Part shown: positions 3,944-24,800 of the stretch, piece after piece
How the letters are laid out: the number at the start of each line of letters is the position of its first letter
How positions within the stretch are numbered: the stretch's first letter is position 1
Virus record (IMG/VR): IMGVR_UViG_3300031857_000638
Span: 1 to 35,952 of that record
DNA from: a virus
Length of the DNA: 35,952 nucleotides
Reading direction: 5' to 3' (one strand)
Notes under the pieces: generated by a model
The model's input: the letters and a program-made list of their open reading frames with translations, nothing else
Databases searched by the model: none
What the model was told of the DNA's origin: nothing
Program-made: the position numbers and the translations under genes

Positions 3944-5137
3944 TTACTTAATCACAACAATTGCTGTAACTTCACCGATGCCTTCTGATGTTTTTGTAGT
4001 AAGGCTTCTTCCTATGACATTAAATGAACCTGCTTCGCCGTCTTTTGCTGCTCTTGCATAACCTTTTCCAGCACTAACAAGACGATCACCTTTTTTAACT
4101 TTACCTTTTACTTTTACTGGAACTCTACCACTAATAGCAACTGCAGGGTGTGTATTATCATCTCCTGCTGCACTGTTCATCATATACGCTGCGCTTGTGC
4201 TGATTACTCCAAATACATTATTACTCAATTCATCAACTACCGCTGTGATTTCAGCAACACCGCCCAGTTCAACCACTGTCCCAGCATCGTAAGGTTGATC
4301 CGCTTCAAAACGTTCCGCTAAGTCAGCATATGTAGCTTGCAATCTAGCACTAGGACTAAGCTGCCAAATACCAGTAATATTGCCGCCACCTGCTAACTCG
4401 CTAGTTGTAACTTTGTTAGGTGCAATGTTTCCAGTAAATTGTGTCACTGCATTCGCCCCGGTAAGATAATCGAATACATTTGCATTAGTATAAGTACCAG
4501 CCGGATTAAATGGTACACCATTACCATACATGTACCTATCGCATTTTATACCAAATGAATTAGATGTCCATGATATATTACCATTTTGCATAGTCCAGTT
4601 ACCTTGTGCTGACCATGCCCCTACAATAGTACCACCTGTTGTAGCACCACCTGTTGTAATTGAAGTAGTATTGGCTGATCCTAATCGTGCGACTGTTAAA
4701 TTTGCATTTGCTGCAAATAAATTACCTGTAACATTAGCTGTAGTTACTGTAATTGAATTACCGATTATAGCGTTATTAGATGTAATATTGTTTGCAATGA
4801 TATTACCAGTTGCATTAACGTTAGCTAAGGTTGCATTACCTGCTGCTGTTGTAGATGTTAATGTAATCCAATTACTTGCTACAAGGGTACCATCAGCTGG
4901 ACATATACTTAATGTGTTTGTGGTTGTATTAAACCATAGTTGTCCTCTCAGAGGATTAGGGGGAGGAGAACTTGAGGCATAACTTTCAAGCTGTCTAACA
5001 AAGTTTGTATCTAAAACTTGTCCGTAATTAGACTTGTTTCGTCCAGGAAGTCCCAATGATGTACTATTGGTATTAATTGTACCGTCTTGAATTGTTGTTA
5101 GTACAGTACCGTCGCTTCGTATAATTGTATATGCCAT
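3944..5137 (-). CDS. Tail-fibre protein with repetitive shaft and conserved C-terminal domain (397 aa)
   Basis: The N-terminus (AYTIIRSDGTVLTTIQDGTI, then a LWFNTTTNTL motif near 67-76) is one I associate with fibre proteins of marine T4-like phages and probably attaches to the virion. Residues about 95-165 form a repetitive Asn/Ala/Thr-rich shaft (ANVNATGNIIANNITS and variants). From about residue 268 a compact domain begins with ATYADLAERFEADQPYDAGT and continues with GRVPVKVKGKVKKGDRLVSA. It resembles C-terminal domains of other phage fibres, some of which act as autoproteolytic or trimerising chaperones; that activity is not shown here. The gene has its own late-type promoter right after the 206-aa gene and a GGAG ribosome binding site 9 bases before the ATG. 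Its likely role is host recognition. Confidence 0.85.
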   Translation of the reverse strand: MAYTIIRSDGTVLTTIQDGTINTNSTSLGLPGRNKSNYGQVLDTNFVRQLESYASSSPPPNPLRGQLWFNTTTNTLSICPADGTLVASNWITLTSTTAAGNATLANVNATGNIIANNITSNNAIIGNSITVTTANVTGNLFAANANLTVARLGSANTTSITTGGATTGGTIVGAWSAQGNWTMQNGNISWTSNSFGIKCDRYMYGNGVPFNPAGTYTNANVFDYLTGANAVTQFTGNIAPNKVTTSELAGGGNITGIWQLSPSARLQATYADLAERFEADQPYDAGTVVELGGVAEITAVVDELSNNVFGVISTSAAYMMNSAAGDDNTHPAVAISGRVPVKVKGKVKKGDRLVSAGKGYARAAKDGEAGSFNVIGRSLTTKTSEGIGEVTAIVVIK

Positions 5138-5963: not shown

Positions 5964-8900
5964 TTAGTCGCTTTTTAAGAAATTAGCTGGTACAGAGTTA
6001 CTTATCTGTAATGGATCCCCTGAGGCTGCATAGTCATCAGAATTCCAAACTTTGTTATTATAGAAAGAATCTAGTATATCTTTAGTAGATAGACTAAACA
6101 CATAAGAATAGGTGTCATGAACAGGAAGGGCTGCTGTCCCATCTACCCCTCTTGTTATTCCAGATAACGTATTAGTACTGATATTTGCGAGTTTAAATGA
6201 TATTTTTTCCCCATTTATAAGAATCGCCTTACCAAATCGCAAAGTAATTACCAAATTATCCCCTAAACTTACATCATCTGTGAAAACTATCTTAGTAACA
6301 GAATTTACAGTGTCCAAATAATATTTGGATTGGTTTAATATAATTTCAGTAGTTTCGTTATAAATTGATAGTAACACAATATCAACTATACTATAATTTA
6401 AATAGACAAGTAGTTGATTATTCACATTTTGAACAATAGCGTTTGTTGTTTCATCGTCTAATAATGTAGTTATGTCATTAACATGAATTTCAGTATCAGT
6501 CGGGTACAATGGGTCAACTAACCAAGTTCTATTTTGAAGGTTACTATTACTAATAGTCATACTACCTTTCCTATCAACCTGAAGTGAATACCAAAGTTCA
6601 TTTGGGGTCGGGGAAGGCATGAAACTCGTAACTATAATTGTATTACCTAAACTGATAGGAGACATAATACTTAATCTATTGTTAGGCTGATTTATTCTTA
6701 AATTGTCTGGGGTAACTCTAGTACCGTTGATATGTACAAACAATCTATTCACATCAACAACATCAAATGTTGGTTGAGTCAACTGAATAGTATTTGTGTA
6801 TTTCCAAATATACCCACCTGATCCTACCCCATTAATAAAATAAGTACCAAAAGTATTTCCAATTACAGGTATTGACATGGTTGAATCTAAATACAGTTCA
6901 AATGGATAATACGTTACTGCGTTTTCAACATATGTGGGTAAAGGTCTTACATAAAAAATATTATTATTAATTTCTGGTATGTTTTGAACTCCGTCGATTA
7001 AAACTTGATCTTGATCAACAAAATTGGGATTAGTTGCTGTAGTAATTATCACCGGAGTTGCAGGGGTATTTACATAATATATAGGAGTAACTCGTATAGT
7101 GGTAGATGTTTGCGTCACAAAATATTGATTTTGCGTATCGTTAAATGATGTTACACTCACTATAGTTGTAGCAGGTATAGAAGGTAGTATAGTTAAGGTG
7201 TTACCTACAATAGTATAATCAATCGTGTTTCTTGCACGAATACCATCTACTTCAACTACTGCATTAGTAGCATTGCTACCTCCCATAAAGTTAGTTAAAG
7301 TAAACACTTGTGGCCCACTAGTGTATTGAAATACCTGAGTTTCTGGCATACAATATTGGTACGAATTTGTAGTAGTAGGACCAAATATAGCAAAACTTAC
7401 ATATTGTGTTGTAGAATCTACTATTGAATCAAAAATTATTCTAATTGAATTTGATTTATTTGGCTCTATTCTGTAATCAGTGTTTAATGTTTGTTTTACT
7501 CCATTTATATAAACCACAGAAAATAAATAAACTCCTGATCTAAATGGATATTCTGTGTCAATATAACTTTCATTTTTTTCAGTATCTAATTTGATAGGAA
7601 TAGTGTCTGATGTTCCTTTTGATTGTTGATTTCCTCCACCAATATCATAACACTCAAAATAAATTTTTTCCGTTGGAGAAATAGGAGATGTCAAAGTAAC
7701 AGTTTTGTTTACCCAATTAATTGTTTGAATTTTTGTTAGGCTAGTTGCGGTTGGTACATCACTTACTTTATAGATTCTAGTCGCTCTGGTGTTTGAAGAA
7801 GATATAATATATACCGCAATTTCTGTCACAAATGGTGATATACCTGCAAATGAAAACTGAGTGATATTTTCAGTTTCTATAGTCACTCCTACCATATTAA
7901 AACCAAAATTATCATATACGCCTGGGTCCCAAAGTGAGCCTGGTGTAGTTTTGACAATCATTTGTAAATTATCAGAAATCACAGCAGGAACCATTTCTTC
8001 TGGTCCATAACCCGACAGGAACGTTTCTCCCTGAATAGTGTATTGAGGTTCTTCTACAAGTAAAAATGAAATATTTTCCCAATCAATTATATTTCTACTT
8101 CTTAAAATTGTTGAATTTTCACCGACTACTATTAAATAAGTACCATCAAAACTTATTTCATTTAAAGTATTAACTGTAATTGTAGCTGTTTGGTTCCAAA
8201 CTTGACCATCACCGCTGTATAACACAATACCGTTATTTCCAACTAATACGTAAGTGTTTAATGCAAATATACCATGATTAATTTCTGTAGTAAACACAGG
8301 ACCTAATATCGTTGCAGGATTCCAGTTACTAGCATTGACTGACCAATATATTTTACCTAACTCCCCTGCTGCAATAATTTTTGTGGGTGAATTAAAAACT
8401 GTGTTAAATTTTGCGTCAATTGTTTGATTTGTGTTTGTCCACTCTATACCGTCATAGCTTATAATTACTCTTGATTGTTCCTCAAAAACTGGTGAAGGAG
8501 TATTTGCCCCTTCAATGACTGAAGTACCACTACCAACTGCGACAAATCCTTCAAATATGAGGCCTGATCCAGAAATATAACTTACAGATTTTAAAACATT
8601 TGGCAATCTACTTTGAAAACTAAACCCTGTTCCCCAACTTGTTGCATTAATACTGGTTAAGAGGTTGCTACCTACCGCCACATAGTTATTATTGTAATAT
8701 GCAACACTATAAAGCTCATCGTTCGGAGTTTCTACAGAAAGTGTATCGAACCCTGTAACATCAAAAGGTGCGTCATCAAAAACAGTATAAGACCCAACAC
8801 TTACCCAATTATATCCATCATAACTAATAAGTAAAGGTGCACTAGAATTTTGAGCGGAAATCACATAAAAAGAACCTGAATAAATTATACTTGTTACATT

Positions 8901-11900
8901 TAAAGGAACATCACTAATCTTTTTGAATAACCAGTCTCTTCCGTTCGTGCTATATAAAACTGTAGCATGATTTGGTGTATTACCTACAGCGACATATTTC
9001 ATTCCATCGTACACTATACTCTTTATATCAATTTCTTTTGGATAAAATGGCTGCCCCTGTAAATTAACATCTAATTCAAAATCTTCATCAAACTTATTAC
9101 CTAAATTAGTTCCGTTAGGATATTCTAAGCCTGACAATAACAAAGGTAAATAGTTACCTGGCATGTTACCTGTAGGTTGATAGTATGTAACTATTCTATC
9201 AAGTGCATTAATTCCTAAATAGTCACTTTGCAACAGTTCCCATTTTGTAAAATCAAATGTGCTATCGCTATTTGCAACGATGCACTTATACAATTTATTA
9301 TTGTAGGCTACTAGCGAAGCTGATGGTGTTGTAAATGGTTCCGGATAAAATCCGATATCCCCTGTGGTAAATATAAACGGAGTTCCAACTGTATTCTTTA
9401 CTGGATCTGTTAATATTGAATTGTAATATAATCTGCACTGAGTAGCTGTTATGGGCACAGTATAGTATTCGGCATAAGCGTTAGCACAGATTCCACTAAG
9501 TGAATAAAATACTATGCCTCCTGATTGAGCGAAGGTAACTGTTATTATCAAATCATTAGCAGGGCTAGTACCTCCTAATAACGATCCTGAAATAGTAATT
9601 TTATCACCGGTTGTGTAAATATTTCCAAAATCTTTTATATCAATAAAGTACTCATTAAGCACAGTTTGTCCATAAATCTTAGGACTAGTGACCCAAATAA
9701 TTGCACCACCTGATCCAGAATTATCATATATGTATGGAGTTGTTAATCTACTAGTCTTGTAGAAATATAATTTTGTTTTATTTAAATATCCTGCACTTAA
9801 TGTACTAGCAGCATAGTTAAAAGTAACAATTACATTGTTAGTACCTGTCTCAGTCGTAACGTTAGTAATAGGAACTGTTGCACCTTGTAAACTGGACCTA
9901 AAAACAGTAGAAGGGATTCCTTCTACTACATACTGAGTTATTGATCCAGGAAGTGTAACTTGCGCAACAGTGATTGTACAACTGTTGAGAGGTGCGGTTC
10001 CGCCTAAAGAAGTACCAGGTATAGTAATTACGTCACCAACTTGATAGCCTAACCCACCACTATTAAGGTCTGCAGTATAGACTCCATAAGTATTTCCTGA
10101 TGAATTAAAATTAGGTGGTTCATCTTCATTTCCATATATCCAAGCGTACACATTGAATATAGCACCGTTTCCTCCCGGCGGGGCTACAGAACCAGAAACA
10201 GAATTATAAGGTATTGCAGTTGCTAATCTACTTCCGTAACTTGCATCATTTCCAATACTGTTATAATCAGAGATGTAGAATTGATTAGGGGCCCAAGGTT
10301 GAACTACTGGGGTATAACTTGTTCTATCAAACTTCAAGATAGGAGTAATTTGTCTTGTAGGAGCATTACTTGATATTGGGATTAATCTAGCTCCCAGTGA
10401 TAGAATATGATTATCACTTGGTGTTTTACTTTGAACTAAACTTAATCGATACGTATCATTTATAGCATTAATTTTTGAAATGTAAAATGCTATTGCAGTT
10501 GGTCTGTTTTCGTTAGCTAAAGTAACTGTGGGTTTTTGCAGCCCATATTCAATTAGTCTAATGTAATAATATTGCTTATCAATCAATCCTAAAATAGGAG
10601 TTACATTATCACCTTTTCTATACTGTAATAAGTCTCCTGTTTCAAAAAGTTTGAAAGGAACGTTTACGGTATTATTTGTAAAATTAATATCAGTAGAGTC
10701 AAATTTATGTTCTATCGCTGGTTCAATAATGAGTTCTGGTAGAACTTTATATCCTTCACCTGAGTTTAAAATAGTAACTGCAATGACTTCATCTCCTGAC
10801 ATTTGTGCTTTGATCGCAGCTTGAACCTTAGGAGCAGGAAAAATTGAAGTATCAACATATGTGATTATATTAGGTGGTTCGGTATAGGCTCTGCCTGCAT
10901 ACAATACAGTTACAGCAGGTAAGTCAATATAAATTTTAGTACCCGGCATGTGTTCTACGACTTCGGTATCAAATGCTCCGCGTGTCAGTCCTGATAATAT
11001 ACCTAAATCTCTATCAACTTGATTATATCCGATGAATTCGTTATCTATTTTTATAACACCTGTTACAGGATAGCCAAATGCATTGTCTACGATAATAACT
11101 TTAGTTGCGACTGGCACATATGCTTTTAACAAACCAATAAAATAATTTGGTCTTCCTTGTAATTTAACTCCATAATTATTAAACCACTGATTGTATTGAG
11201 TTTCATCCCATATAGGATCAGTAGTAGTATATTGTGAGTCTTTTGTTGTATCACCAAAAACTAGCTCAGGTGTTACGAATGAATTTAATTCAGCATTCCA
11301 CTGAGAAGGTAAATCAAAATCAGTTATATTACCATCATAGATATTTGTTTTTGTATATTTTAAACTAAATTCTTTTAATTTTACTCTATATGGTTTAACT
11401 TCATTAATGTATCCATATAGAAAATCTTCATTGTCTCTTTGGAAATTTTTAATTTGTTCCAATTCTCTTAAGGTATGTTCAACATCTAAGAATGATGTTT
11501 TGTTTAACCAAGGCAAGTAATTACCAAATTCATCACTTTCGGTGATTATATAATTAAACAATAAAATTAAACCTTGATTTCTATAAATCAGCAAATCATC
11601 AGTAAATACTTCTTCATTTAATCCACGAATTATATTATATGTTTCGACAGAGGGAAACGTATCATAAGGATCGCTATCAAAAAAGCTATCACCGAATCCT
11701 ATACCATTAATGCTGTAATTCCAAAGCGAGTCTTTAATTTGAATTGTACCTAATTCTAACCCTATTCTCTGCCAAGAATTTACTCTGTAAATATAGACCT
11801 CACGTTTTCCGTTACTGTTAGAATTTACTCCGACTATCATATTTTCATACGGAGTTAGTTTTTCTAAATCGTAATATTTGGCAACATCAATATCAGTTTT

Positions 11901-14900
11901 TGTTGAGTCTGAATAACCTTCCTCCCACCAATTCACATATTCCCAATAATTATTTGTATCAAAATTATCACCCGAAATTGTAAAGAATGCAGGGGCATTT
12001 ACACCTGTTATTGCGGATCCGCCTAATGATAAGAAACTTGGATTTTTTAATTCTGTTATTGGAAACTTTATCATTACATTATTTGCAAATTGAACATAAT
12101 TTTGTAAAGCTTTTAATCTATTATAGAAAAAACTTTGATTAGGTCTTAAATTAGTTCCAGTTTGTAATAATCTAGGCAAGAATGGGTTAGGTACTGCTTG
12201 ACCTTGTGCATCAACACCAGCAAAACTATCTAGTAATTTTCTGTATAGTCCGTCTGGTCTTACAAGATTGTTGTATAGTGTTGGCAGTCCTGGTAAGAAA
12301 TCTTCAGCATAACCATCTCTTATTAATTTAAATTCAGTGTGTGCAACATCATTACCTAAGTTAGACTTAAATCCTAAGTGTAAGCTAGTAAAGTTTGAAC
12401 TAATATATTCAGATACATTATACAAACCAAATACGTTTTGCTTTAACGGTGCTAAAAATGCTATGCCTGAACTAATAGGATTGGATATGTATGATGAAAT
12501 GATATTATCAGAAAGCGTCTTGTTCGCACTTATTACATTGCCTATATTTTTTACCCAATAATAATATCTTGTAACAATTGTGCCGCCATTAATTACCTCA
12601 TAAAGAGTAGTGTAAGAATCAATATCATATACTGTCCCAACACCGGAATAATCGATAGGCAACACATCACTTTCTATCCAAGTATAAACCGAAACAATAC
12701 TGCCAGGAAATACACTACCCCAATATTTGCTATTATAAACTATATCATTTTGATGATAATCAATAAATCTTGTTTGAGAGGTGTCGAACCAAAGCTTACC
12801 AACATACTGTTGTCCCCAAACAACTTTTGTAGAACTATTATTGTTATATCCTGCAGGATCTACACTTGAAATATAATCAAGATTTTCTCTTACAGCTCCC
12901 AATAGTTTGCCCTGCAAAGGATCAATATAATCTAAATTTACAATATTTAGGCTATTAAGATTGTTGTAAATAGAAACTATGTGTAATGAGTCAATATCAA
13001 CACTTTGATTAGGATTTCTATAAACACTCCAGTCAGACGCATTAGAGTTGTTTATAAAAATGTTCGCACGACCATTTTCACTTCCTGTTAAATAGTTCGG
13101 AGAACCAATAATAACCTTATAGTCATTAAATGCTATAGAGGTTCCATAATATGGTACACTACCAATATTAGTAGAAGTATCGTTAAGGAGCTGCGCTAAT
13201 ACAAAATTTCCTATATTGTTTATACTTTCATTGTATGCTCCTAAATAATCGTACATGTAAGCAGAACCTGCTTCAACTAAAATATCTACAAATATAGTAA
13301 AATTATTATCAAATATGGTATCGTTTGTGTAATCTTCATCGTCAGTAAAATCAAAATTTGTTTGAGTGTACCTATTGCTCGTAGGAGCAGTAACTACAAA
13401 AGAATTAAATTCATTGAATTTAAGTGCGGATCCATATTGCGTTGCGTTTTGAATATTAGGATCGTGAAACTCTTGTGTTTTTTGATAATATGTGATTCCC
13501 AAACTAGCATAATCAGCTTCGGCAAAAACAGTTAAATTAAGTTTATCTCCGGATGTATTGAGATTTTGATTTATAAGTTGAATTACTAATTTATTATCTA
13601 TTGTTTTTGAAGCAGTTACGTTTGGTATATTCGCTTGTATTATAGCACTTACAGCGCCATCTATACCTGTGCTAGGTAATGTTACAAGAAAACCATTTAT
13701 TAAAATATTTTGCTGCGTTGAAAGTGAATACGCAGTTGAGCCAGTTATTATTCCAAATTTTTTGCCTGCATTAGTATAACGGTAAACGCTTCCTTCAGTA
13801 CCTGTAGCATCAACTATGTCGAACGGAGCACCAATTAATAGTTCATTACCAAACGTATTAATATCCAATCCTTTACCATAAAGCATTCCGATTCTAGGAT
13901 TAGAAACTTGGCTATGACCAATTAGTGTCTGAGATAAAACAAAATCATTTCCTTCAACTGTGATTAAATCGCCGGCGTTAATTTGAATATTAATAGTCAG
14001 TATATTAGTAGAAATAGTATAGTTACTTGTGCTTAACACAACACCATTTCGTAATACTGTCACTGAATTTACAGGAGTCCATCCTAATGTGAAGCTTGTA
14101 GTTAATGTAAGTATTGAATTGAAATTGCTTTCAAAAACCTGTCTAATTCTATTGTAAACATACACGGCTCCTGTATCTGTAACAGCATTAAAATCTTGAT
14201 TTGGTGCGCTTACAAATAATTGAGTTCCATTATAATTGGTAGCAATGTTTGATCCAAAATTTGTTGCCGATCCAGCACCAGTAATTGTTGCTACATTAGT
14301 GTAATTGTAATATGCTCTATAAACTATAGTACCTGCAGTAACGCCTGCAAAAAAGTAACCATCAATTGTAAAGGTTGTGGTGTTTGCTGAAGAACTATAT
14401 GTACCAGTTATTATTTTATAAGTTTGAGCAGTATCAGCATTAGAAAAACTAACCATTTGTCCTTCTAACAATAATGACCTTCTATCACCGCTTACAGTAA
14501 ATTGTGTGCCATTCTGCTGTATAGCTGTTGTTAAAGAATAGCCTATGCTTGTATAGGTTAAAAACGTATTTCTTCTATATGCAAAAACTTGTCTGGTTGA
14601 ACTTTTTCCAACAAAGAAATAATTACAATCATCTGACATTACTACTTTATCTGTAAGTCCGCTTACGTTAAAAGAATTTTGTAAAGCAACAGCTTCAATT
14701 TTTTCTGTTTGAACTAACTCATAAATGTACACTGTGCTTGTCGCTGCAGATTTTAACACTGCTAAAAAGTTTTGTTGCTTATCCATACTGGTACCAAAAC
14801 CAGTTGGGCTTGACGATAGTGTTATTGTTTCTTCTAAATTCCAAAAGTTTACATTTGAAATATACTTGTATCTGTAAATGTTTCCTGCACCCGAATCAGC

Positions 14901-17900
14901 TATAAAATATCCAAGCTTAGTGTCATAAGCAACACTACTTCCAAAGGTTGTAGTAGGAGATGGCTTAGTAAATGTGGTTGTACCTAAATAGTTAATTGAT
15001 TTTCTATAAACCGCCCATGTACCATCTATATTTTCGTCTACCCAAACAGTATTTTTTACAAATTCTGTATCTAATAAATTTAAATTTATAATATCTTTTG
15101 GTGAATTTACTCTTTGATTTTGTAATTTAGAAACGATACCTGTTGATTCTATATTTGGTATAGATAACGGTAAGCTCAAATCAATCACAACTGAGTTTGC
15201 ATTACCTATTTTTACAACAACGTGAAAACCGTCTACAGCACTTGCATAATTCAAAATTAATATTACAGAATTAACTGTTAAGCCGTGAGGTTTGCTGAAA
15301 AATACTGTACATGTATCATTTAAATTATTAACAACATTTACAATAGAAATTACGTCAGTAGAATTACTTAGAGAAATGGTTGCATAAGCTTTCCAATCTC
15401 CCTTAAAATCAGCTATCCATACATATTCATTTTTATAAACATCATTAATTGAAACTAGATTTTGATTTAAATTCGTTACCTTATATGAATGCATTTTGAC
15501 ATCTTCAAAATTTACATATCCAGCTGAAGGCAACTGATTCATTTTATAAGATGGTAATAAAGGTAAAATTCTTATATTTTGCGGGACACGACCATAGTTA
15601 GTCAGTCCATACAGAGGTATTTCTTGCATCGACCCTGGTTCAGATTCACCATTTATTACACTAATGATTGAGGGATTTCCGTTTAACTTTTGTTCTTCAA
15701 GCTTAAATTCAATAAAGTTTTGATCTAATACACCGCCGTAGTTTCCAACATTTATAGACCAATTTTCATAAACAGTATAGTTTATTCCTCCTGTAGGCAA
15801 ACTTATATTTTGAATTGCAGAAGTGGCTTGTTTACTTCCTTTCTCTACAATCATAGTTTTATATAAATTTACTTGAGATATATCATCTAAATTAGCAGCG
15901 ACTAGGTAATTTCTTGGTCTATATCCAATAAGAGAAAATGCTAATAAATCCGCATCATTTTCCAAATTTGCAGTGTATGAATTATAATATAAAGTGCTTT
16001 CATATGCTCTGCTACTTGCATTCGGTAATAACCCTTTTTGTATTTCATCATAATCTACTTTTGTCCAAAATCCTTGTTGAAAGGTATCTGACGGTTGGAT
16101 TATTTCATTAGCAGCGTAATAATTATTTTTATATTTGACGATAATACCTTTAGTATATTTGGTATTGATTTGCCATTCCAAAACATTGTCTTGATTTAAA
16201 ATAAAACCCTTAGTATCAACTGTGCCGTCCCACGTAGCAGTTTTTGCTCCTTTTAAAAGCATACGATACTGTCGTAGACCTGTATTAGGATCGTAAATTA
16301 AATCATTAAAAAGTGTAACGTTATCAAACACAATCGCATGTTCCATATTACTAAGGTTAGCATTAAGGTATGCAATAGTATCATCAACTTTGATTGGAAT
16401 CGCAGAGAATTCAACACCATTACGAATAACTGACATATCCTTAATTTGTATAGGAATCAAATTCTGATTCAAAATGTAATTTTGTTCTTGAATAGTAAGA
16501 GGTTGTACAATAGAGTTTTCTTTGTCTATAACAATCTTTTTAGCTAAAGGATTTATATTTAGTATTGAACCTGTTTCCCACCCTGCTTGTATCCATGCAA
16601 GAACTTCTTGAATCATAGTGTTCCAATTGAGAATTACATTATTTTCTACTTGATCAAATAAGAGTCCCTGAGAACTTAAATAGTTTCCATACCCATTTAT
16701 AAATTCTGCTAAAGCCTGCGGCGTACTAAACTCTGTACTGTAAGGTACAATTATCACTCTATCACTAGAATTTTTTGATATTTTTACTGATAAAGATCCA
16801 GACGTAATTGTTTCGTATTTACCATTTACTAATGGAGCCAATGCTTTAAAATAAATTTTGTTTTGGCTATTTCCATAAACCTGATATCCTGTATCAGTTT
16901 TTTGAATTATAATTGAACTATAAATTATTGTGTCAAACGGCTGATTTTCATGTAATAAAACACTATAGCTTTCATCTGGTATTAGTAGAGTATTATTTTT
17001 GCTATTCGGTGAGCCTTTGTCTACATAAAACTTCAGCAATTCTTTGTCACTGAATCCAGCTAATCTGTATACCAAACGAACATCTAGATTGTTTAAATAA
17101 TTTGTAAGTAGATCATAACCTGAGTTACCAGTACTCTGTACATAATCTACAATCCAATTTATATAACTATGTTGTGCTGTTCCACTACCATACACAACGG
17201 TGCCTGTTGTAGTAAATCTAAATTTATCATTTAACAAATATTGATTAAATTCTGTATTATATTTGTAGGTATCTAAATTTTCACCCAATGCAAAAAACTT
17301 TGCTGGCTTACATAACGCTAAAATTTTAACTAAATCAAAAGGCCAAGTGCTACTTTTTAGATAACTATATTCGGCAGGCCCCCAATCACCTACTTTCCAT
17401 TGAGTTTGAAAGGTTAATTCATCATAATTACCTATAACGGAATTTAATGGATCTACTAAGTTACCTAAATCATCTACTGGCAAAACTTTTAACAAACCTG
17501 GTCTTTTTCTAGACTCAATTATTATAGGATTACCGTCATTATAATCATAGCCATTTTCCATATCAGTCCACAACACCAAGTTATTTTTAGTATAAGGTGC
17601 TGCGCCATAATAGCCATCCCACCAAACTGGTTTATTAGTATATCCAATTAGTTCCCATGGAGTTAAGTTTGGAGTTGCAGTATCGAAAAACCAATTGTAA
17701 AGACCCTTCCAATTGCCTCTTTTTACAATTGTGTTGTCTAATTTATTTGTAGCTTGATAATAATTATATGTATATGGATCGGTTGTAATATAGTATTGTG
17801 ATTTGTAATCTATTCTATTTTGTCCTACCCAATTTAAAAAGGATAAAGAATATAATTGTAAAATTTCATCGTAATTATAATTTGTTTTTCTAAACTGTCC

Positions 17901-20900
17901 AGGTAAAATTTCATCACTTGATATAGGAATTCTAGAACTAACTTTTATATTATTATAAATTCTACATTCGAACTCAAAAATTACCTGATCTCTATAATCA
18001 GTAAGATTACCATTTGTATAACTTCCGTATAGCGTAGTTAACGAACCATCATGTCCTTTAATAAACCACGTTGGTGTTAGATAAGAAGAATCGTAAACAA
18101 CCTCAGGTACGGTTGCAGGATAAAATCCTAACTTAGTTGGTGTGTTTGGAACATAACTTCCATAAGTTTGGTTATATTCATTAACGACTATTACATCACC
18201 TGCGATTAAATCTGTTTGAACTGTTACTAAAGGTTCGTCTGCACTCACAGTATAATCGACATTTCTGATTAATTGTTTTTCTACTAGAACTCCCTCTACC
18301 TCTCTCAACACATAAAGAAGTACACCATTATAATTGGCAGAGCTAAAATTATAAATCTTACTTAAAGAAAATTGTGCTTGTTGTACATCCGCTTTAAAAG
18401 TATATCTATTAGTAATATACGCTCCTCTGTTTGGAAGCATGTCTGACCAAAAGAATGAGTTATTTTGAGCTTTAAAAGAGGTAATTTCATTAATAGCGTT
18501 ATCTAAAATAGTAGATGCTATTTGATAACTTTCATAAGGAGTTTTATTTACGATATCTATCAACAAACTTTTATACTTAACATATTCGTTTGCATTAAAG
18601 TTTAAAGCATCAATTAAATTATAATTTGCATTTTTTAACAAAGCTCCTGTCAATGACAGTGGAGCACTATTTTGAATAATTTTAGTTCCGTATCTAACTA
18701 GATTGGGCAAATCTCTATAATTGTTGGAACCAAAAATTTGACCTGTAATTCTTTTGCTGTTTGTGCAAATACTTAAGTAGTGATTTTTTAAATCTCCTAA
18801 ATTTAAATTTTTTATTTGTGCGTTGAAAATATTATTTTCTAAATTTGTGGGAATAGTAAAATATGCATTTTTACTAACTTGATTACTATAAATTAAAATT
18901 TGCACTGGTGTTTCTAAAATTGGATTAGCATTTAAAGTTACAATTGTAGTATTATTTTCTACTACATAACTAAATTCACTGTCAAATAATACATTATCTC
19001 TAACAGTAACTTTAATTACAGGCCATGCAGTAGATTCTGATGAATTTGCTGGTACATCACAAATAAATTTAGCATCTCCGTTTAAAGGATTGTAGTTAAA
19101 TGTGAACGCCTGATATTGAAAACTTTCTGATATAGCTGTTTGCCATCCTAACTCTCGATTATATGTGTCACGTGAATTATAATTATATACGTATCCTTCA
19201 TTAACATTTTGTGTAGTTGGGTTTCCATTTAATACATAGGTAAATTGATCCGTATTAAAAGAAACATCAAATTGAATATCTCCTATGTTATCTACTGAAC
19301 TATATTTTAAAGGAAATCCCAGTACGGGATCATTATTCCCTGTTCCAGTTGCATATTGAAATAAAGATGTTCCAATAAAACTAGAACTATTATAATAATC
19401 TGTATCACCAAAACTTAAACCATTAGTATCAAATACATCAAATAAAGGTGGCTGATTTACTGTTGTTTTGAGTTGTCCCTGAATCCAATTTGTTCCATCA
19501 AACCAATACGTATATCCCTTTCTTACTTGTCCTAGTAAAACAACAACTTGGTCAAGATTTTCTATGTCACCGTTCGCAATCTTTGTAAATGTTATGATTG
19601 GTGGTGCCTGTGTTAAAAGAACGTTCCCTGAATCATTGGATAATTGTATAAATGAACTTAAATTAGGGTCCGTGCTTAATCTAAGTGAAGTAGTATTAGG
19701 TTTATCGTACACATAATATTTGGTAAATGCAGATAATCCACCTATACTTTGATTCAAAGAAACTAAACTACCCACAACAAATTTCGTTGAATCAGAAACA
19801 GTTAACCTATCAGTGGAAGCAGACGTTGAAACAATTGTAGTTGATGTTTGTAGTGCCTCCGCAGTTGAAACAAAATTTACTCTAAAAATTTTGTTTCTAA
19901 CATTAACGTCTGTGTCCGCAGAAAATACGACCCGACAGCCGTCAAATAAACCAAAACTTGATCCGTCTGGATAATATTGCAATTGATTTGCAACTTGTGT
20001 AAAGGCGTCTGTAGCGGTTACATCAAAATAATCGACTGGTCCTCTAGCCTCAGTACCTAAATTAAATAATTTTAAATTAGGATAAAATTCAATAATTGGT
20101 CGTTTTGCTCTGGCTTCATTACTGTTAATTACGTTTAATAAATTACTACTATTAGTGTGTTTAATAGTTTCTTGTATTACTTGTGAGTGAAACCATCTAT
20201 TTCCGCGTGACCATGCATTTAAATTATTTGCTGCTCTACTAATTGTAATATAATCTTGTGCAATTGGTGATTCAACAATATCAGAGTATGGTGCTATATC
20301 ATATGGCGATATATCGTATGGATAATATACACTTTGAGAATATGATTCTGGAGTTACAAGTGATGAATTTGGTATTAATTTAATTCCTGTCCCTACACCT
20401 TCTACATAATATTGGTCATTCTTGTATTTCTCAGGAATAATATCTCCTGAGAAACTAATTTTTAAACCATTAGTAAATTTTACATTATTAGGAGAAGTAT
20501 AAGTTAACTTACCTAAAATTTCAGTTTCTACATTTATAAAATTTTCAGTATTGTTATCAACTATTTTTATTATGCCGAATTTTTTTAAATTAGAACTATC
20601 TTGATAATACAAAACATCTAAAGGAGCAGTTATTTCTGGAATAATTTGTATCTCACCAGTTTGTAAACGAACAAACTTTTTAGAAATATATTTGTTTCCT
20701 GATAAAACTGTTATATTCGTATCTTGTGGGATAACAGTTAGTGGAGTAAGACTTATTATAGGGTCACCTGGTATATCAGTTTCATTATAATTAACTTTGA
20801 AGAAAAATTGATTTACGTTGACAAATGTAGTAGAATCAAATCCTACAGGATTTATTGTATCCTGATCAAAAGGAAGCTCATCAAAAAATGTTTCTACCGA

Positions 20901-21803
20901 TGCATTTTGCAGAGCAGATGATCCATAAAACAAAATAGTTTTGTCAAGTAAATTGGTTGCACCATCAATATTTCCAATTGTGCTTAATCGTTGACCATGT
21001 ATGTTAGTAAAGGCTTGATCGCTTACTAGGTCTACATTTATATTCCCCTGATATGTAGTTTCGTTCTGTGCATCTGATCTAGGGACATTAAAAGTAATTA
21101 CTCCCTCGTTTGTTCCGTTATTTTCTAATCCAAAAATATCTCTGGTGCTAACATTTGTTCTGTTAGGTACAGTGCCAGACAATCCAGGCATTGTTTGAAT
21201 CCAAAATTTTGAATTTTGTTTAACATTAAAATAGTATGTTCCGCCTCTTAAGAGTGTTATAACCGGGTTAAATTCTTCTATTTTAAAATTATCTTGTATG
21301 AACAAAAATTCATTTGTCTGACTTATTACATCAAAAAATGAAGTTAAATTTACCGGTAAAGGTTCGACATTAACAACATCAGGACCAAACGGTAACCAAT
21401 AATATTGACTATAATTTGACAGTTTATCTAAATCTGCAAAACTATCCCAACTATAAAATTGATTATCAAACAATAAAGAGTTATTAGTAATTGGTGCGCC
21501 CTGTAGTTTTAGCGCATCAATCATTTCAGGATAACTTATAAAATCTATAGCACGGCTAGTCTCATTTTTTTTAAAAATGATAGCTGGTTCTAATTGATAA
21601 TCTGTTCTTGTTTTATTAATTTCAGGTACGTAATAGGAATTAGGAGTAAGACCATATTCAAATCTTCTTCCAATATAACCTTGTAATTTTTCTAAATCTT
21701 GCTGTTTAACAAGTTGATCCAATGTGGCGGATAGAAAATTTTCATTAGGTGTTGTTTTAAAAATTTCTGGAAGAAAATCAATTGTTCTTACTTGCGCTAC
21801 CAT
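5964..21803 (-). CDS. Giant baseplate/tail structural protein (5279 aa), gp7-position
   Basis: One uninterrupted reading frame of 15.8 kb, starting 11 bases after gp6. The N-terminus (TIDFLPEIFKTTPNENFLSA, then ATLDQLVKQQDLEKL and YYWLPFGPDVV near 130) and internal segments (WKVGDWGPAEYSYL; NEVKPYRVKLKEF, with P at 3471) are of a kind I know from very large structural proteins of marine T4-like phages. Its position after gp6 is that of T4 gene 7 (about 1030 aa), so a baseplate wedge role is inferred. Two repeat regions stand out: FG-GAP-like blades about 2287-2920 (F/Y-G starts at 2287, 2336, 2516, 2642, 2790, 2886) and seven YDG...W repeats about 4260-4580. Paired LGGT(A/S)P modules lie at 3933 and 4076, and two L(S)G(L/I)TRG modules at 3607 and 5217. 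Only a weak GGAAAA site precedes the ATG, with no late promoter. Confidence 0.9.
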   Translation of the reverse strand: MVAQVRTIDFLPEIFKTTPNENFLSATLDQLVKQQDLEKLQGYIGRRFEYGLTPNSYYVPEINKTRTDYQLEPAIIFKKNETSRAIDFISYPEMIDALKLQGAPITNNSLLFDNQFYSWDSFADLDKLSNYSQYYWLPFGPDVVNVEPLPVNLTSFFDVISQTNEFLFIQDNFKIEEFNPVITLLRGGTYYFNVKQNSKFWIQTMPGLSGTVPNRTNVSTRDIFGLENNGTNEGVITFNVPRSDAQNETTYQGNINVDLVSDQAFTNIHGQRLSTIGNIDGATNLLDKTILFYGSSALQNASVETFFDELPFDQDTINPVGFDSTTFVNVNQFFFKVNYNETDIPGDPIISLTPLTVIPQDTNITVLSGNKYISKKFVRLQTGEIQIIPEITAPLDVLYYQDSSNLKKFGIIKIVDNNTENFINVETEILGKLTYTSPNNVKFTNGLKISFSGDIIPEKYKNDQYYVEGVGTGIKLIPNSSLVTPESYSQSVYYPYDISPYDIAPYSDIVESPIAQDYITISRAANNLNAWSRGNRWFHSQVIQETIKHTNSSNLLNVINSNEARAKRPIIEFYPNLKLFNLGTEARGPVDYFDVTATDAFTQVANQLQYYPDGSSFGLFDGCRVVFSADTDVNVRNKIFRVNFVSTAEALQTSTTIVSTSASTDRLTVSDSTKFVVGSLVSLNQSIGGLSAFTKYYVYDKPNTTSLRLSTDPNLSSFIQLSNDSGNVLLTQAPPIITFTKIANGDIENLDQVVVLLGQVRKGYTYWFDGTNWIQGQLKTTVNQPPLFDVFDTNGLSFGDTDYYNSSSFIGTSLFQYATGTGNNDPVLGFPLKYSSVDNIGDIQFDVSFNTDQFTYVLNGNPTTQNVNEGYVYNYNSRDTYNRELGWQTAISESFQYQAFTFNYNPLNGDAKFICDVPANSSESTAWPVIKVTVRDNVLFDSEFSYVVENNTTIVTLNANPILETPVQILIYSNQVSKNAYFTIPTNLENNIFNAQIKNLNLGDLKNHYLSICTNSKRITGQIFGSNNYRDLPNLVRYGTKIIQNSAPLSLTGALLKNANYNLIDALNFNANEYVKYKSLLIDIVNKTPYESYQIASTILDNAINEITSFKAQNNSFFWSDMLPNRGAYITNRYTFKADVQQAQFSLSKIYNFSSANYNGVLLYVLREVEGVLVEKQLIRNVDYTVSADEPLVTVQTDLIAGDVIVVNEYNQTYGSYVPNTPTKLGFYPATVPEVVYDSSYLTPTWFIKGHDGSLTTLYGSYTNGNLTDYRDQVIFEFECRIYNNIKVSSRIPISSDEILPGQFRKTNYNYDEILQLYSLSFLNWVGQNRIDYKSQYYITTDPYTYNYYQATNKLDNTIVKRGNWKGLYNWFFDTATPNLTPWELIGYTNKPVWWDGYYGAAPYTKNNLVLWTDMENGYDYNDGNPIIIESRKRPGLLKVLPVDDLGNLVDPLNSVIGNYDELTFQTQWKVGDWGPAEYSYLKSSTWPFDLVKILALCKPAKFFALGENLDTYKYNTEFNQYLLNDKFRFTTTGTVVYGSGTAQHSYINWIVDYVQSTGNSGYDLLTNYLNNLDVRLVYRLAGFSDKELLKFYVDKGSPNSKNNTLLIPDESYSVLLHENQPFDTIIYSSIIIQKTDTGYQVYGNSQNKIYFKALAPLVNGKYETITSGSLSVKISKNSSDRVIIVPYSTEFSTPQALAEFINGYGNYLSSQGLLFDQVENNVILNWNTMIQEVLAWIQAGWETGSILNINPLAKKIVIDKENSIVQPLTIQEQNYILNQNLIPIQIKDMSVIRNGVEFSAIPIKVDDTIAYLNANLSNMEHAIVFDNVTLFNDLIYDPNTGLRQYRMLLKGAKTATWDGTVDTKGFILNQDNVLEWQINTKYTKGIIVKYKNNYYAANEIIQPSDTFQQGFWTKVDYDEIQKGLLPNASSRAYESTLYYNSYTANLENDADLLAFSLIGYRPRNYLVAANLDDISQVNLYKTMIVEKGSKQATSAIQNISLPTGGINYTVYENWSINVGNYGGVLDQNFIEFKLEEQKLNGNPSIISVINGESEPGSMQEIPLYGLTNYGRVPQNIRILPLLPSYKMNQLPSAGYVNFEDVKMHSYKVTNLNQNLVSINDVYKNEYVWIADFKGDWKAYATISLSNSTDVISIVNVVNNLNDTCTVFFSKPHGLTVNSVILILNYASAVDGFHVVVKIGNANSVVIDLSLPLSIPNIESTGIVSKLQNQRVNSPKDIINLNLLDTEFVKNTVWVDENIDGTWAVYRKSINYLGTTTFTKPSPTTTFGSSVAYDTKLGYFIADSGAGNIYRYKYISNVNFWNLEETITLSSSPTGFGTSMDKQQNFLAVLKSAATSTVYIYELVQTEKIEAVALQNSFNVSGLTDKVVMSDDCNYFFVGKSSTRQVFAYRRNTFLTYTSIGYSLTTAIQQNGTQFTVSGDRRSLLLEGQMVSFSNADTAQTYKIITGTYSSSANTTTFTIDGYFFAGVTAGTIVYRAYYNYTNVATITGAGSATNFGSNIATNYNGTQLFVSAPNQDFNAVTDTGAVYVYNRIRQVFESNFNSILTLTTSFTLGWTPVNSVTVLRNGVVLSTSNYTISTNILTINIQINAGDLITVEGNDFVLSQTLIGHSQVSNPRIGMLYGKGLDINTFGNELLIGAPFDIVDATGTEGSVYRYTNAGKKFGIITGSTAYSLSTQQNILINGFLVTLPSTGIDGAVSAIIQANIPNVTASKTIDNKLVIQLINQNLNTSGDKLNLTVFAEADYASLGITYYQKTQEFHDPNIQNATQYGSALKFNEFNSFVVTAPTSNRYTQTNFDFTDDEDYTNDTIFDNNFTIFVDILVEAGSAYMYDYLGAYNESINNIGNFVLAQLLNDTSTNIGSVPYYGTSIAFNDYKVIIGSPNYLTGSENGRANIFINNSNASDWSVYRNPNQSVDIDSLHIVSIYNNLNSLNIVNLDYIDPLQGKLLGAVRENLDYISSVDPAGYNNNSSTKVVWGQQYVGKLWFDTSQTRFIDYHQNDIVYNSKYWGSVFPGSIVSVYTWIESDVLPIDYSGVGTVYDIDSYTTLYEVINGGTIVTRYYYWVKNIGNVISANKTLSDNIISSYISNPISSGIAFLAPLKQNVFGLYNVSEYISSNFTSLHLGFKSNLGNDVAHTEFKLIRDGYAEDFLPGLPTLYNNLVRPDGLYRKLLDSFAGVDAQGQAVPNPFLPRLLQTGTNLRPNQSFFYNRLKALQNYVQFANNVMIKFPITELKNPSFLSLGGSAITGVNAPAFFTISGDNFDTNNYWEYVNWWEEGYSDSTKTDIDVAKYYDLEKLTPYENMIVGVNSNSNGKREVYIYRVNSWQRIGLELGTIQIKDSLWNYSINGIGFGDSFFDSDPYDTFPSVETYNIIRGLNEEVFTDDLLIYRNQGLILLFNYIITESDEFGNYLPWLNKTSFLDVEHTLRELEQIKNFQRDNEDFLYGYINEVKPYRVKLKEFSLKYTKTNIYDGNITDFDLPSQWNAELNSFVTPELVFGDTTKDSQYTTTDPIWDETQYNQWFNNYGVKLQGRPNYFIGLLKAYVPVATKVIIVDNAFGYPVTGVIKIDNEFIGYNQVDRDLGILSGLTRGAFDTEVVEHMPGTKIYIDLPAVTVLYAGRAYTEPPNIITYVDTSIFPAPKVQAAIKAQMSGDEVIAVTILNSGEGYKVLPELIIEPAIEHKFDSTDINFTNNTVNVPFKLFETGDLLQYRKGDNVTPILGLIDKQYYYIRLIEYGLQKPTVTLANENRPTAIAFYISKINAINDTYRLSLVQSKTPSDNHILSLGARLIPISSNAPTRQITPILKFDRTSYTPVVQPWAPNQFYISDYNSIGNDASYGSRLATAIPYNSVSGSVAPPGGNGAIFNVYAWIYGNEDEPPNFNSSGNTYGVYTADLNSGGLGYQVGDVITIPGTSLGGTAPLNSCTITVAQVTLPGSITQYVVEGIPSTVFRSSLQGATVPITNVTTETGTNNVIVTFNYAASTLSAGYLNKTKLYFYKTSRLTTPYIYDNSGSGGAIIWVTSPKIYGQTVLNEYFIDIKDFGNIYTTGDKITISGSLLGGTSPANDLIITVTFAQSGGIVFYSLSGICANAYAEYYTVPITATQCRLYYNSILTDPVKNTVGTPFIFTTGDIGFYPEPFTTPSASLVAYNNKLYKCIVANSDSTFDFTKWELLQSDYLGINALDRIVTYYQPTGNMPGNYLPLLLSGLEYPNGTNLGNKFDEDFELDVNLQGQPFYPKEIDIKSIVYDGMKYVAVGNTPNHATVLYSTNGRDWLFKKISDVPLNVTSIIYSGSFYVISAQNSSAPLLISYDGYNWVSVGSYTVFDDAPFDVTGFDTLSVETPNDELYSVAYYNNNYVAVGSNLLTSINATSWGTGFSFQSRLPNVLKSVSYISGSGLIFEGFVAVGSGTSVIEGANTPSPVFEEQSRVIISYDGIEWTNTNQTIDAKFNTVFNSPTKIIAAGELGKIYWSVNASNWNPATILGPVFTTEINHGIFALNTYVLVGNNGIVLYSGDGQVWNQTATITVNTLNEISFDGTYLIVVGENSTILRSRNIIDWENISFLLVEEPQYTIQGETFLSGYGPEEMVPAVISDNLQMIVKTTPGSLWDPGVYDNFGFNMVGVTIETENITQFSFAGISPFVTEIAVYIISSSNTRATRIYKVSDVPTATSLTKIQTINWVNKTVTLTSPISPTEKIYFECYDIGGGNQQSKGTSDTIPIKLDTEKNESYIDTEYPFRSGVYLFSVVYINGVKQTLNTDYRIEPNKSNSIRIIFDSIVDSTTQYVSFAIFGPTTTNSYQYCMPETQVFQYTSGPQVFTLTNFMGGSNATNAVVEVDGIRARNTIDYTIVGNTLTILPSIPATTIVSVTSFNDTQNQYFVTQTSTTIRVTPIYYVNTPATPVIITTATNPNFVDQDQVLIDGVQNIPEINNNIFYVRPLPTYVENAVTYYPFELYLDSTMSIPVIGNTFGTYFINGVGSGGYIWKYTNTIQLTQPTFDVVDVNRLFVHINGTRVTPDNLRINQPNNRLSIMSPISLGNTIIVTSFMPSPTPNELWYSLQVDRKGSMTISNSNLQNRTWLVDPLYPTDTEIHVNDITTLLDDETTNAIVQNVNNQLLVYLNYSIVDIVLLSIYNETTEIILNQSKYYLDTVNSVTKIVFTDDVSLGDNLVITLRFGKAILINGEKISFKLANISTNTLSGITRGVDGTAALPVHDTYSYVFSLSTKDILDSFYNNKVWNSDDYAASGDPLQISNSVPANFLKSD

Positions 21804-21814
21804 ATATTTTTCCG

Positions 21815-24800
21815 TTAAGGTTGTAGTTGTTCAGGAGTAATCGCTGAAATAATAACTATATCGTTTGATTGAGCACCGTTCACAAAAATCTCATACGGCG
21901 CACACCTTATTTCATATAAATCACCAAAAGTCAAAGAGGGGTCTTTTGGAACTAAGATCGCAGAACTTATAAGTCCATCTAAATTTGAATGTAAGTATGC
22001 GCTTAGTTCACTAAAAAAGAAGGTATCTCCAAAATCCCAATTATCAATACTAAAATAATTATTCATTGCAGTAATAACTGCAGCACGAACTTCACTATCA
22101 CTCGCTGTTGTCAGACTAGACTTTATTACTTTAATAGTAGCCTGTAGCTGAGGAGAAGCTTTGTTACCAAAAAGAGGTTTGAAAGTGACGCTATTTAAAA
22201 CAATTGTGTCACTCATCATTTTGTAGTCATTTACTTTGTTATATTCTTGTGTTAATTGTTCTACTGTTGGTCTCAGTGGTTCAGATACAGTTCCCGTTGT
22301 GTCTTTAATCCAGTTGTTATAAGAAGTATAATAAGCCAAAGTTACTACATATAAATCAATGATGTTTGTTGTACCAGGATCAATTCTTGTAGTGTTATTA
22401 CTTAAATGATTGTATTGAAAAAATAAACTTTGTCTTCCTGATTGTGAGGAATAATTTGTTACTTCTGTTAAATTTACGATGTTTAATGATGTTGTGTCAG
22501 CAACAGATTTATAAAATTTATTTTCTACGTATGTGTAAAAAATTTGTCCTACAGGAAATTCATATTTAACTACTTCAACATCGTTTTTATTTCCATAAGA
22601 ATAATTAATTAAAGTTGGTTCAGTTAATCCATTTTTTGTAAGATAATTAATATCAGTAAAAGTCTCAATAAAAACAAAATTTGAGGTGTTTGTTGAACCA
22701 AAAGTATAACCTGTAATGGTAGTAAAAAAATCTGGATTATCAATTAAAGAAGAATTTTTTGAGTCTAGACTACTTACCTCAATCGCATAATCATCAGGGT
22801 AACCGTCTGATTCAACTGTTTGTCCTACCACATTAAGTCTAAAATCTTCTCCTAAAATAGATAATGAATTAGGTGTCGTATTAGTTTTTAAAACTTTGAC
22901 CGTATCATAAGCTAAGGTTCCTGATAGAGGATCAAAAATAATTTTTTCTGAATCAAAAGTAAACCTTGTATTCTTAACACTTCCAAAATAATATGTGATA
23001 GCTTTACTTGTTATTCTATATGCACCCTCTCCTAAACTTTCAAATTTTATAAGAGCGTCTGGTCTATTATAGCTTCCTATAAACCATCTATTAACATTAA
23101 CCGGCAGAATATTCACATAATATAAAGAAAAACTTTGTAAATTCTCAAAATAAGTTAGAACTTCTTGCAATATTGGATTCGGTAAGATATTATCAAAAAC
23201 TGGAATAATAGTTTCAAGGATTGCACCAGTTGAAACAAACTTACTTAAACTTACTGGACCTAATCCATTATATAAATTGCCCTCACCCCCGTTAAACCCA
23301 TCCTCAACAACGTTTAAAACATTTACCCACATAAACGTATTATTAATTGAAGGTGCAGCTCCTGCTACTAATCTATCATTAAGAAAGTAATATCCAGATG
23401 GAGCAACAAATTTTAATAAAGAACCAGGTGTGCAATATTTCATATTATATGCACTATAAATACCCGCTGCAACAGGTCCTGCTACATTTTCAAAATAACC
23501 AGTAACTAGTGTACCATCATAACTCGTTTGATTCCATGTTGTAATGCCATCGCCTGAAGCAACATTAATAGGATATCTAGCACAGGTTACAACATAATAT
23601 TGATACAGATTTCTATTTGAGATAATTTCTAGAATTTGATTACTAAATAACCTATTAGCGGATCCTGATGCCTCACTTATATTAAAGTCGTAGAACTTAT
23701 CATTGCTGTTAAAATATAATGCTCCGTCATCAGAAAAACTAGTTGTGCTTGAATACTTGCCAGTTGGATCAAGTAAATCAAAATTTCTTGAAATTCCAAT
23801 AGAACTTCTATTTAAAGCTTTTGTTTTTATTATAGAACTGTAAAGTGTGTATGGAAAATTATTATAATCTTCACCATTTACCATTCTGTTTTGAGAATAA
23901 AAGTGTACGGGTGCTTTTGCTTTTATATCTGGTATAGACTCTCTTGATTGGGCATTATTAACAGGCTGTGTTAGCTCAACCGTCATAGTTAAAGTTTCAA
24001 TGCGATTAAATTTACTTACATAACTGAAAGTTAATGTAGTATTTGTTAGTTCAGCGGGATCGATTGAATATTGCAATCCATTACTTGATCTTACATATGC
24101 TCTAAAAGAACCAACAGGAATCTCACTAAAAACACCGTCCCCAAAAATATAATTTACTTGATCGTTAAATCTAGAAGTTACAGAAAATACTGATTTACGT
24201 GAATTTTCTTCCCTTAAATAAGTATTTGCATATAAATTATCTACTTGTTGCCAATAATTTAAATTATTATTAGTTGAATCAATTTTATACAACCATGTAT
24301 CAGTATTATTAATTCCTTGTATTTCTCCTATTGGAACTACCTGATTTGCAATTTGTTGATTTAATGTAAAATCATAATTTACAAGTGAACCTTGTTTAAA
24401 ATATAAAAAGAATCCAGTGTTTAAACTACCGTAACCTAATTTATCATTTCTGTATAAAATATTAAATGTGCCTTTTGGATTAGGAGGAATTTCGTACACA
24501 TAGGTTTGATTTAAACTTGTAGCACTCACCCCTTCAAAATTCATAGTTACACCACCAACTGTTGCATTAAAAGGTATAACAGGTAAAACAGTATTTGGAA
24601 TACGCAAAGAATATTCTTCAGTTTTAATATTTGAAATTTCTTGTGTATTACCAGGTCTCCCGACTCGTTGTGCATCAACTAATGTGGCATTTATTATAGA
24701 ATAAAATTGCTCTAACCAATTTGGATTAGCAGGGTCGTTCCAAAATACAGGTATACCTGCAAGACCTAAACCATTGATGTCTACAACATTTTCTGTTGTA

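Follow-up and report, generated by a model that had tools for sequence, protein, structure and literature searches.

Why should a giant phage protein, encoded among what read as baseplate genes, carry a beta-propeller of the kind found in the head of an integrin alpha subunit, and what might the propeller do there? The question is raised by the virus record IMGVR_UViG_3300031857_000638, whose 35,952 bases constitute the window analysed here, and in which a giant structural protein of 5279 residues is encoded on the minus strand. A first-pass annotation of this DNA had described an FG-GAP-like seven-bladed propeller inserted in the giant, possibly serving as a receptor-binding module. Structure prediction and structural comparison give good support to the view that residues 2271-2917 of the giant form an FG-GAP propeller with seven blades, of the type seen in integrin alpha heads. 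Its predicted parts are as follows (window coordinates, all on the minus strand, with residues of the giant in brackets).

13053-14993 (2271-2917): seven-bladed FG-GAP propeller, from AlphaFold2, VIA-align and FG-GAP_2 matches in relatives
15003-15056 (2250-2267): N-terminal neck hairpin (TVWVDENIDGTWAVYRK), strongly conserved, outside the aligned propeller range
14823-14948 (2286-2327): blade 1, from the model strand list
14661-14801 (2335-2381): blade 2, from the model strand list
14574-14651 (2385-2410): blade 3, strands A-C, from the model; strand D is probably 2500-2507
14307-14573 (2411-2499): insert I1, C-D connection of blade 3, of low confidence and variable length
14133-14267 (2513-2557): blade 4, strands A-C, from the model strand list
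13971-14132 (2558-2611): insert I2, C-D connection of blade 4, a small beta module in the model
13776-13895 (2637-2676): blade 5, strands A-C, from the model strand list
13491-13775 (2677-2771): insert I3, C-D connection of blade 5, a small alpha/beta domain in the model
13191-13448 (2786-2871): blade 6, the best conserved blade by alignment
13269-13382 (2808-2845): acidic B-C loop of blade 6, FDFTDDE...NDT.FDNN, 38 residues
13053-13154 (2884-2917): blade 7, strands A-C, from the model; the fourth strand would be 2271-2278
13020-13034 (2924-2928): C-terminal neck strand, WSVYR of DWSVYR, from the model and alignment

In line with the first-pass annotation, AlphaFold2 run on a 45-row alignment returned a closed ring of seven four-stranded blades (predicted local distance difference test, pLDDT, 82.2; predicted template modelling score, pTM, 0.83). 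When this model was compared with 968 chains by VIA-align, 48 of the best 50 matches listed were integrin alpha (Z 30.6-33.9), with model residues 41 to 699 aligning with the integrin alpha heads; the best solved match was alphaL (Z 33.9, root-mean-square deviation 2.3 A, 332 aligned residues, 17% identity), and the remaining two of the 50 were Ciao1 chains, which are WD40 propellers (Z 30.8 and 30.6, 10-11% identity). The FG-GAP-type assignment was likewise borne out, given that integrin alpha heads are the nearest solved folds and that FG-GAP_2 occurs in relatives. In a library of viral structures the best match was an uncultured phage protein (E 5.3e-30, 19% identity), and since three of the 50 matches listed bear the name FG-GAP repeat protein, the mere occurrence of such propellers in viral proteins is no novelty. 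A 393-residue 'hemagglutinin' of Atu_ph07 also has a similar predicted fold (E 6e-10). We do not claim membership of the integrin alpha subunits, because the carrier protein matches a phage virion protein family.

The sequence motifs on which the propeller had been proposed were recovered, with F/Y-G starts at residues 2287, 2336, 2516, 2642, 2790 and 2886 and VSAP, IGAP, VTAP or IGSP motifs at 2531, 2657, 2804 and 2899. A composite blade pattern, devised post hoc after inspection of the sequence, matches the whole giant four times, always within the propeller region, as against a mean of 0.03 and a maximum of 1 in 500 shuffles of the giant. The glycine of the F/Y-G motif is kept in 40-45 of the 45 aligned relatives for blades 1, 2, 4, 5, 6 and 7; in blade 3 the motif is lost in the window, and 24 of the 45 rows have the form xG...A.S.D. 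The suspected relationship to the Pfam family FG-GAP (PF01839) stood at the level of the relatives but not for the window copy on its own, which scores above cut-off with no Pfam family (FG-GAP itself at E 0.38 for a long piece and E 0.27 for the domain alone, 11.6 bits against a cut-off of 22.1). The relatives are in part 75-80% identical to the window propeller and in part about 40%; FG-GAP_2 exceeds its curated cut-off in five of ten scanned singly, and some FG-GAP-family match at E<=10 is found in 39 of 45 (best 1.3e-13). Because the window copy falls below the cut-off, its FG-GAP signature rests on these relatives. A tblastn search with the propeller against 50,697 phage records, a set that may omit records very near the window, found none at E<=0.01, a result that does not exclude distant relatives. 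Finally, a profile search of PDB sequences placed integrin alpha-4 on top, at E 0.013 only.

The model strand list gives seven units whose starts follow those of the first-pass annotation, and it explains their irregular lengths in the way that had been guessed there: the blades are unequal because blades 3-5 contain inserts I1, I2 and I3, which, as read from the strand list, occupy the equivalent place (the C-D connection) of three consecutive blades. In I1, pLDDT blocks are 48-68 and alignment occupancy is 0.57. The annotated location also holds, except that the fold starts about 16 residues earlier, with residues 2271-2278, which should close blade 7 because the integrin-aligned range begins at about model residue 41. 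The look-alike flanking sequences GTWAVYRKS and DWSVYRNPN are present too, but the strand list and the aligned range place them outside the blades, where they would form a neck. Calculated over 42 rows (three near-identical rows of the 45 were omitted), mean pair identity is 0.69 in the B-C loop of blade 6, compared with 0.40-0.48 in blades 1-5 and 7. The idea that a module like I2 recurs in the giant was rejected, the initial search pass having yielded weak matches only (E 0.0026-0.032; residues 1119-1209, 5015-5058, 4848-4886 and 652-725), with none at 0.05 in the reversed giant and 20 shuffles; values from the iterated search were inflated and hence left unused.

Integrin alpha propellers (alphaL, 5e6s; alphaM, 7usm) are seven-bladed FG-GAP-type rings, as here, and their last blade is closed by an N-terminal strand, an arrangement that we infer for the window propeller as well. 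Integrins carry their I domain between blades 2 and 3, unlike the inserts in the C-D loops of blades 3-5, and an integrin alpha subunit has further ectodomains, a membrane anchor and a beta-subunit partner, whereas the window propeller belongs to a phage structural protein and not to a cell receptor. The two also differ with respect to calcium. Calcium-binding DxDxDG loops are common, if not universal, in the A-B turns of FG-GAP propellers, and inspection of the blades of this one for such loops had been proposed; calcium there found no support, as an A-B turn with the strict motif D.[DN].[DNS]G occurs in none of the 45 members (looser calcium motifs lie outside the pattern tested). The strict motif does occur in 34 of the 45 rows, 32 times in the neck hairpin and twice in the B-C loop of blade 4. 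The neck hairpin, WVDENxDGxW (window 15003-15056, minus strand), may thereby offer a metal site outside the propeller.

The protein that carries the propeller is encoded in the following setting.

5964-21803, minus strand: giant structural protein, 5279 residues (single-frame open reading frame, ORF; phrog_10938 match; orthologues detected by mass spectrometry)
21815-25171, minus strand: gp6-like baseplate wedge gene (matched by two 'baseplate wedge subunit' families, phrog_10646 at E 3.1e-245 and phrog_219 at E 5e-26)
25219-25674, minus strand: gp25-like baseplate wedge gene (phrog_43, 'baseplate wedge subunit', E 2.6e-9)
25688-28588, minus strand: gp5-like hub gene (phrog_13211, 'baseplate hub subunit and tail lysozyme', E 4e-36)
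32680-33576, strand opposite to that of the giant: late sigma factor gene

Judged by its sequence, this region reads as the baseplate cluster of a T4-like myovirus, in which the gp6-like, gp25-like and gp5-like genes all lie upstream of the giant in its reading direction. The virion structural protein family phrog_10938 matches four of five overlapping pieces of the giant (E 1.5e-58, 8.7e-119, 7e-23 and 3.4e-52), on either side of the propeller, and finds no match in the last piece (residues 3901-5279, 1379 residues). Each propeller flank matches 57 phage records, with 21-33% identity among the matches listed. Orthologues of the giant follow a baseplate wedge gene in the record annotations of PBECO4, CBB, XaC1 and PA5oct, and the window's order of gp25-like gene, gp6-like gene and giant recurs in the annotations of PBECO4, XaC1 and CBB. 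The order in T4 is gp6-gp7-gp8 and in cyanophage S-SSM7 gp25-gp6-gp7; the window giant likewise comes directly after the gp6-like gene. The record of PA5oct notes detection of its orthologue by electrospray ionisation tandem mass spectrometry (ESI-MS/MS). According to passages of the CBB report (PMC5259590), the wedge gene preceding the orthologue in CBB is named gp6, and the orthologue itself, CBB_236, is among the CBB proteins detected by mass spectrometry. Elsewhere in the window (3944-5137, minus strand) lies a gene whose protein has a C-terminus matching phrog_6427 (unknown function, E 1.7e-16) and also a weaker match to a tail fibre family, phrog_19602 (E 1.9e-4).

The propeller is a fixed part of the giant among the environmental relatives that were sampled. 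A query consisting of the upstream flank only gave 518 confirmed loci, of which the best 80 were kept, so that the sample leans to near relatives. The propeller is present in all 76 of these 80 loci that reach the site, two of them being partial at a contig end; the other four (L119, L135, L154 and L158) were left out because their contigs end before it. Fifty-eight of the 76 testable loci are contigs absent from the set retrieved with the propeller as query, 18 of the 80 contigs being common to both sets. That second set (best 80 of 116 loci) has the propeller in 80 of 80, which is uninformative on frequency because the loci were found with the propeller's own sequence.

None of the seven cultured relatives examined (PBECO4, XaC1, Vibrio 2.275, PA5oct, Atu_ph07, Phosso and SCTP-2) has the propeller at this site. 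The distance between the anchors flanking the site is 125 residues in PBECO4, 71 in XaC1, 126 in Vibrio 2.275 and 107 in PA5oct, against 802, 751, 747 and 794 for the matching anchors in the window. In Atu_ph07 and Phosso the distances are 1065 and 1064 (808 and 813 in the window), and the roughly 1000 residues at the site (about 2120-3180 of L083 and about 2140-3200 of L084, respectively) contain Gly-rich repeats of the type GWGY..P.VTV.G. In SCTP-2, for which the profile missed the upstream anchor and tblastn anchors were used, about 444 residues of different content correspond to some 820 in the window; that this stretch might be LamG, as a motif read by eye suggested, found no support from Pfam (E<=1) or PDB sequences (E<=10). 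Furthermore, phrog_10938 spends 408 profile positions over 1077 residues of the giant spanning the propeller region. The propeller is thus extra relative to the cultured relatives, in agreement with its original description as an insertion. In six of the seven cultured records nothing matched the propeller profile at E<=1. The seventh, Phosso, gave 14 partial matches lying outside the giant (best E 1e-4), including L089 (92223-92957) and L090 (a 3702-residue ORF).

Comparison of sequences further indicates that the propeller is under purifying selection and is inherited with the core of the giant. In four close pairs (L003, L005, L006 and L008) the nonsynonymous distance, dN, is 0.130-0.176 for the propeller, 0.094-0.114 for the upstream core and 0.170-0.217 for the C-terminal part, and two more distant pairs (L103 and L104) show the same order, core < propeller < C-terminal part. 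The ratio of propeller dN to the synonymous distance, dS, is 0.08-0.10 in the four close pairs, a rough figure because dS is near saturation. Over 16 full-length giants, mean pair identity is 0.40 in the FG-GAP propeller, 0.32 in a second propeller described below and 0.51 elsewhere. For 100 distinct propellers kept from 143 complete sets, propeller distances correlate with core distances (Spearman 0.82-0.83, compared with 0.86 for core versus core), and none of 199 permutations gave a value as high. Swapping of propellers within the clade is not supported, since propeller distances track those of the core. These patterns fit a conserved functional element which evolves more quickly than the core, and not a diversifying reader of receptors.

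It is probable, if only just, that the propeller acts as a rigid docking platform on a gp7-position giant in the baseplate of a T4-like jumbo phage, and not as the main receptor reader. That it is an insertion in a wedge giant is read from the sequence, predicted models and gene order, and the fold, the structural carrier, the gp7 position, the retention in sampled relatives and the constrained blade 6 loop are all predicted with confidence. The propeller would be joined to the giant via its two-strand neck and would lie at the periphery of the baseplate, with six copies of the giant in each baseplate, should it share the stoichiometry of T4 gp7 (a monomer present in 6 copies per tail, according to passages of PMC3004832). 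Blade 6, with its acidic B-C loop, may touch a partner that stays constant, be it a further wedge protein or a fibre anchor, while the remaining blades and inserts I1-I3 would face outwards, providing a broad surface able to hold fibres or to contact the cell weakly. Docking is favoured in that purifying selection, joint inheritance with the core and a conserved acidic loop in blade 6 agree with it at least as well as with receptor binding.

Several points weigh against this reading. The identity of the propeller's ligand or partner and its place in the virion are a guess, and it is from strand order that we read which face of the propeller bears the loops and inserts. When eight pieces of the giant family were compared by hhalign with the single T4 gp7 sequence, no homology was detected (probability <=0.4%), and gp7 is therefore a positional name only. 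The conservation of the blade 6 loop is matched by the N-terminal neck and the C-terminal flank (identity 0.69 and 0.66). Propeller dN is 1.3-1.6 times that of the upstream core in each of the six pairs, which suits an exposed ligand-binding part as well, the dN/dS ratios share the roughness noted above, and the pair L124/L169 deviates from co-inheritance, with a core distance of 0.12 and a propeller distance of 0.34. As for the fold, Foldseek alone puts Elp2 and other WD40-type chains on top, with low TM-scores (template modelling scores). We take the inserts to be the cause of this ranking, and VIA-align was used for ranking because they are presumed to distort that of Foldseek. The claim of a seven-bladed propeller is firmer than the claim of an FG-GAP/integrin subtype. 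The latter draws on the sequence signal of the relatives and the VIA-align ranking, and is the weaker of the two because Foldseek favours WD40 and the PDB profile match reaches only E 0.013.

The propeller might instead be a receptor- or glycan-binding head that contacts the host directly, with blades 1-5 and the inserts as its binding face. This is possible, if rather unlikely. Passages of PMC4901313 supply precedents for propellers whose binding role at phage baseplates is established or suspected in the phi11 receptor-binding protein (RBP) and PhiKZ gp131C; conservation is lower in the propeller than in the parts of the giant outside both propellers, its dN exceeds that of the upstream core in every pair, and other lineages have different material at the site. 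Yet hypervariability is lacking, as the low dN/dS in the four close pairs and the co-inheritance with the core indicate, all six pairs show faster change in the giant's C-terminal part than in the propeller, the best conserved site is an acidic loop and not a variable pocket, and the tail-fibre-like gene at 3944-5137 lies elsewhere in the window. The lineage-specific material could also mean that the site after the W.VY neck is a module bay, which the environmental lineage fills with the propeller, Atu_ph07 and Phosso with Gly-rich repeats, SCTP-2 with a different stretch and the others with almost nothing; here the propeller would be an adaptor in the manner of integrins, with its acidic blade 6 loop locking a detachable or rotating element of the tail fibre before contraction, a proposal we regard as doubtful.

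An inert propeller that spaces or stiffens an outsized baseplate and binds nothing would sit well with the seven cultured relatives that do without it at the site, but this seems quite improbable, because retention in 76 of 76 loci (among the best 80 of 518) together with one loop near-invariant among sequences about 40% identical is more than a spacer needs. That the propeller is an enzyme is scarcely credible: weak matches to Lactonase (7 of 45 relatives, best E 0.0013) and Arylesterase (4 of 45, best E 0.017) do occur, and the acidic blade 6 loop could conceivably hold a metal, but the two Arylesterase matches with a known cut-off fall short of it (13.8 and 15.7 of 21.3 bits), no catalytic set emerged in these scans, beyond which no search was made, and the structural ranking is led by integrin heads, which are not known to be enzymes.

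Propellers in phage baseplates are described in other systems, and the propeller fold and its use in viral proteins are already known. As passages of PMC4901313 describe them, PhiKZ gp131C (4GBF) is a seven-bladed myophage propeller at the baseplate periphery, to which we liken the window propeller by description, although it is the C-terminal domain of gp131 and not an insert in a wedge giant; the phi11 RBP is likewise a propeller in a baseplate component, but it has five blades, is a homotrimer from a siphophage of S. aureus and possesses a cavity that could take GlcNAc. The phrog_10938 giants of PBECO4, CBB and related phages are kin of the carrier that follow a gp6-like gene and match both sides of the propeller; those of PBECO4 and XaC1, without a propeller at the site, have about 3330 residues compared with 5279 in the window. 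CBB also encodes Kelch-type propeller proteins (CBB_550, 552 and 554), which are separate proteins, unlike the embedded FG-GAP propeller; passages of PMC5259590 place CBB_552 in the CBB virion.

The giant is predicted to contain a second propeller of another family.

8073-9029, minus strand (residues 4259-4577): BNR/Asp-box-type propeller, seven repeats by eye, AlphaFold2 pTM 0.74

Its best solved match is virginiamycin B lyase (Z 28.7, VIA-align). At E<=1, DUF6242 is found in 24 of 41 relatives and PSII_BNR in 16 of 41, and the window's own DUF6242 match is under the cut-off (16.6 of 29 bits). It appears to be a module subject to gain or loss, because it is absent from two relatives, L029 (residues 4744-4827) and L116 (about 4690-4775), while the flanks remain (the upstream flank of L116 by eye). 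In S-SSM7, the protein annotated as gp7 contains a domain related to this second propeller (E 9.7e-20). That protein (SSSM7_103, 3001 residues), annotated as a baseplate wedge subunit, has a BNR propeller like the second one of the window, and its record gave no FG-GAP propeller match at E<=1. A core shared with S-SSM7 gp7 was not detected, the BNR propeller and short repeats being all that the two have in common. S-SSM7 has two ORFs of about 3000 residues both labelled gp7 (L189, 5562-14585; L188, 7651-16656), and these are little alike (best blastp E 0.004).

In the open-access literature we found neither FG-GAP in jumbo phage baseplates or phage tails, nor the embedding of such a propeller in a wedge-position giant, its retention in a clade, its three equivalent inserts or its conserved loop. 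The analysis thus places an integrin-head-type propeller in the core baseplate cluster of uncultured jumbo phages (contigs up to 524 kb), where a single chain would carry two propellers of different families. The conserved loop of blade 6, together with a site whose content varies between lineages, may offer a testable handle on how oversized baseplates are built and decorated.

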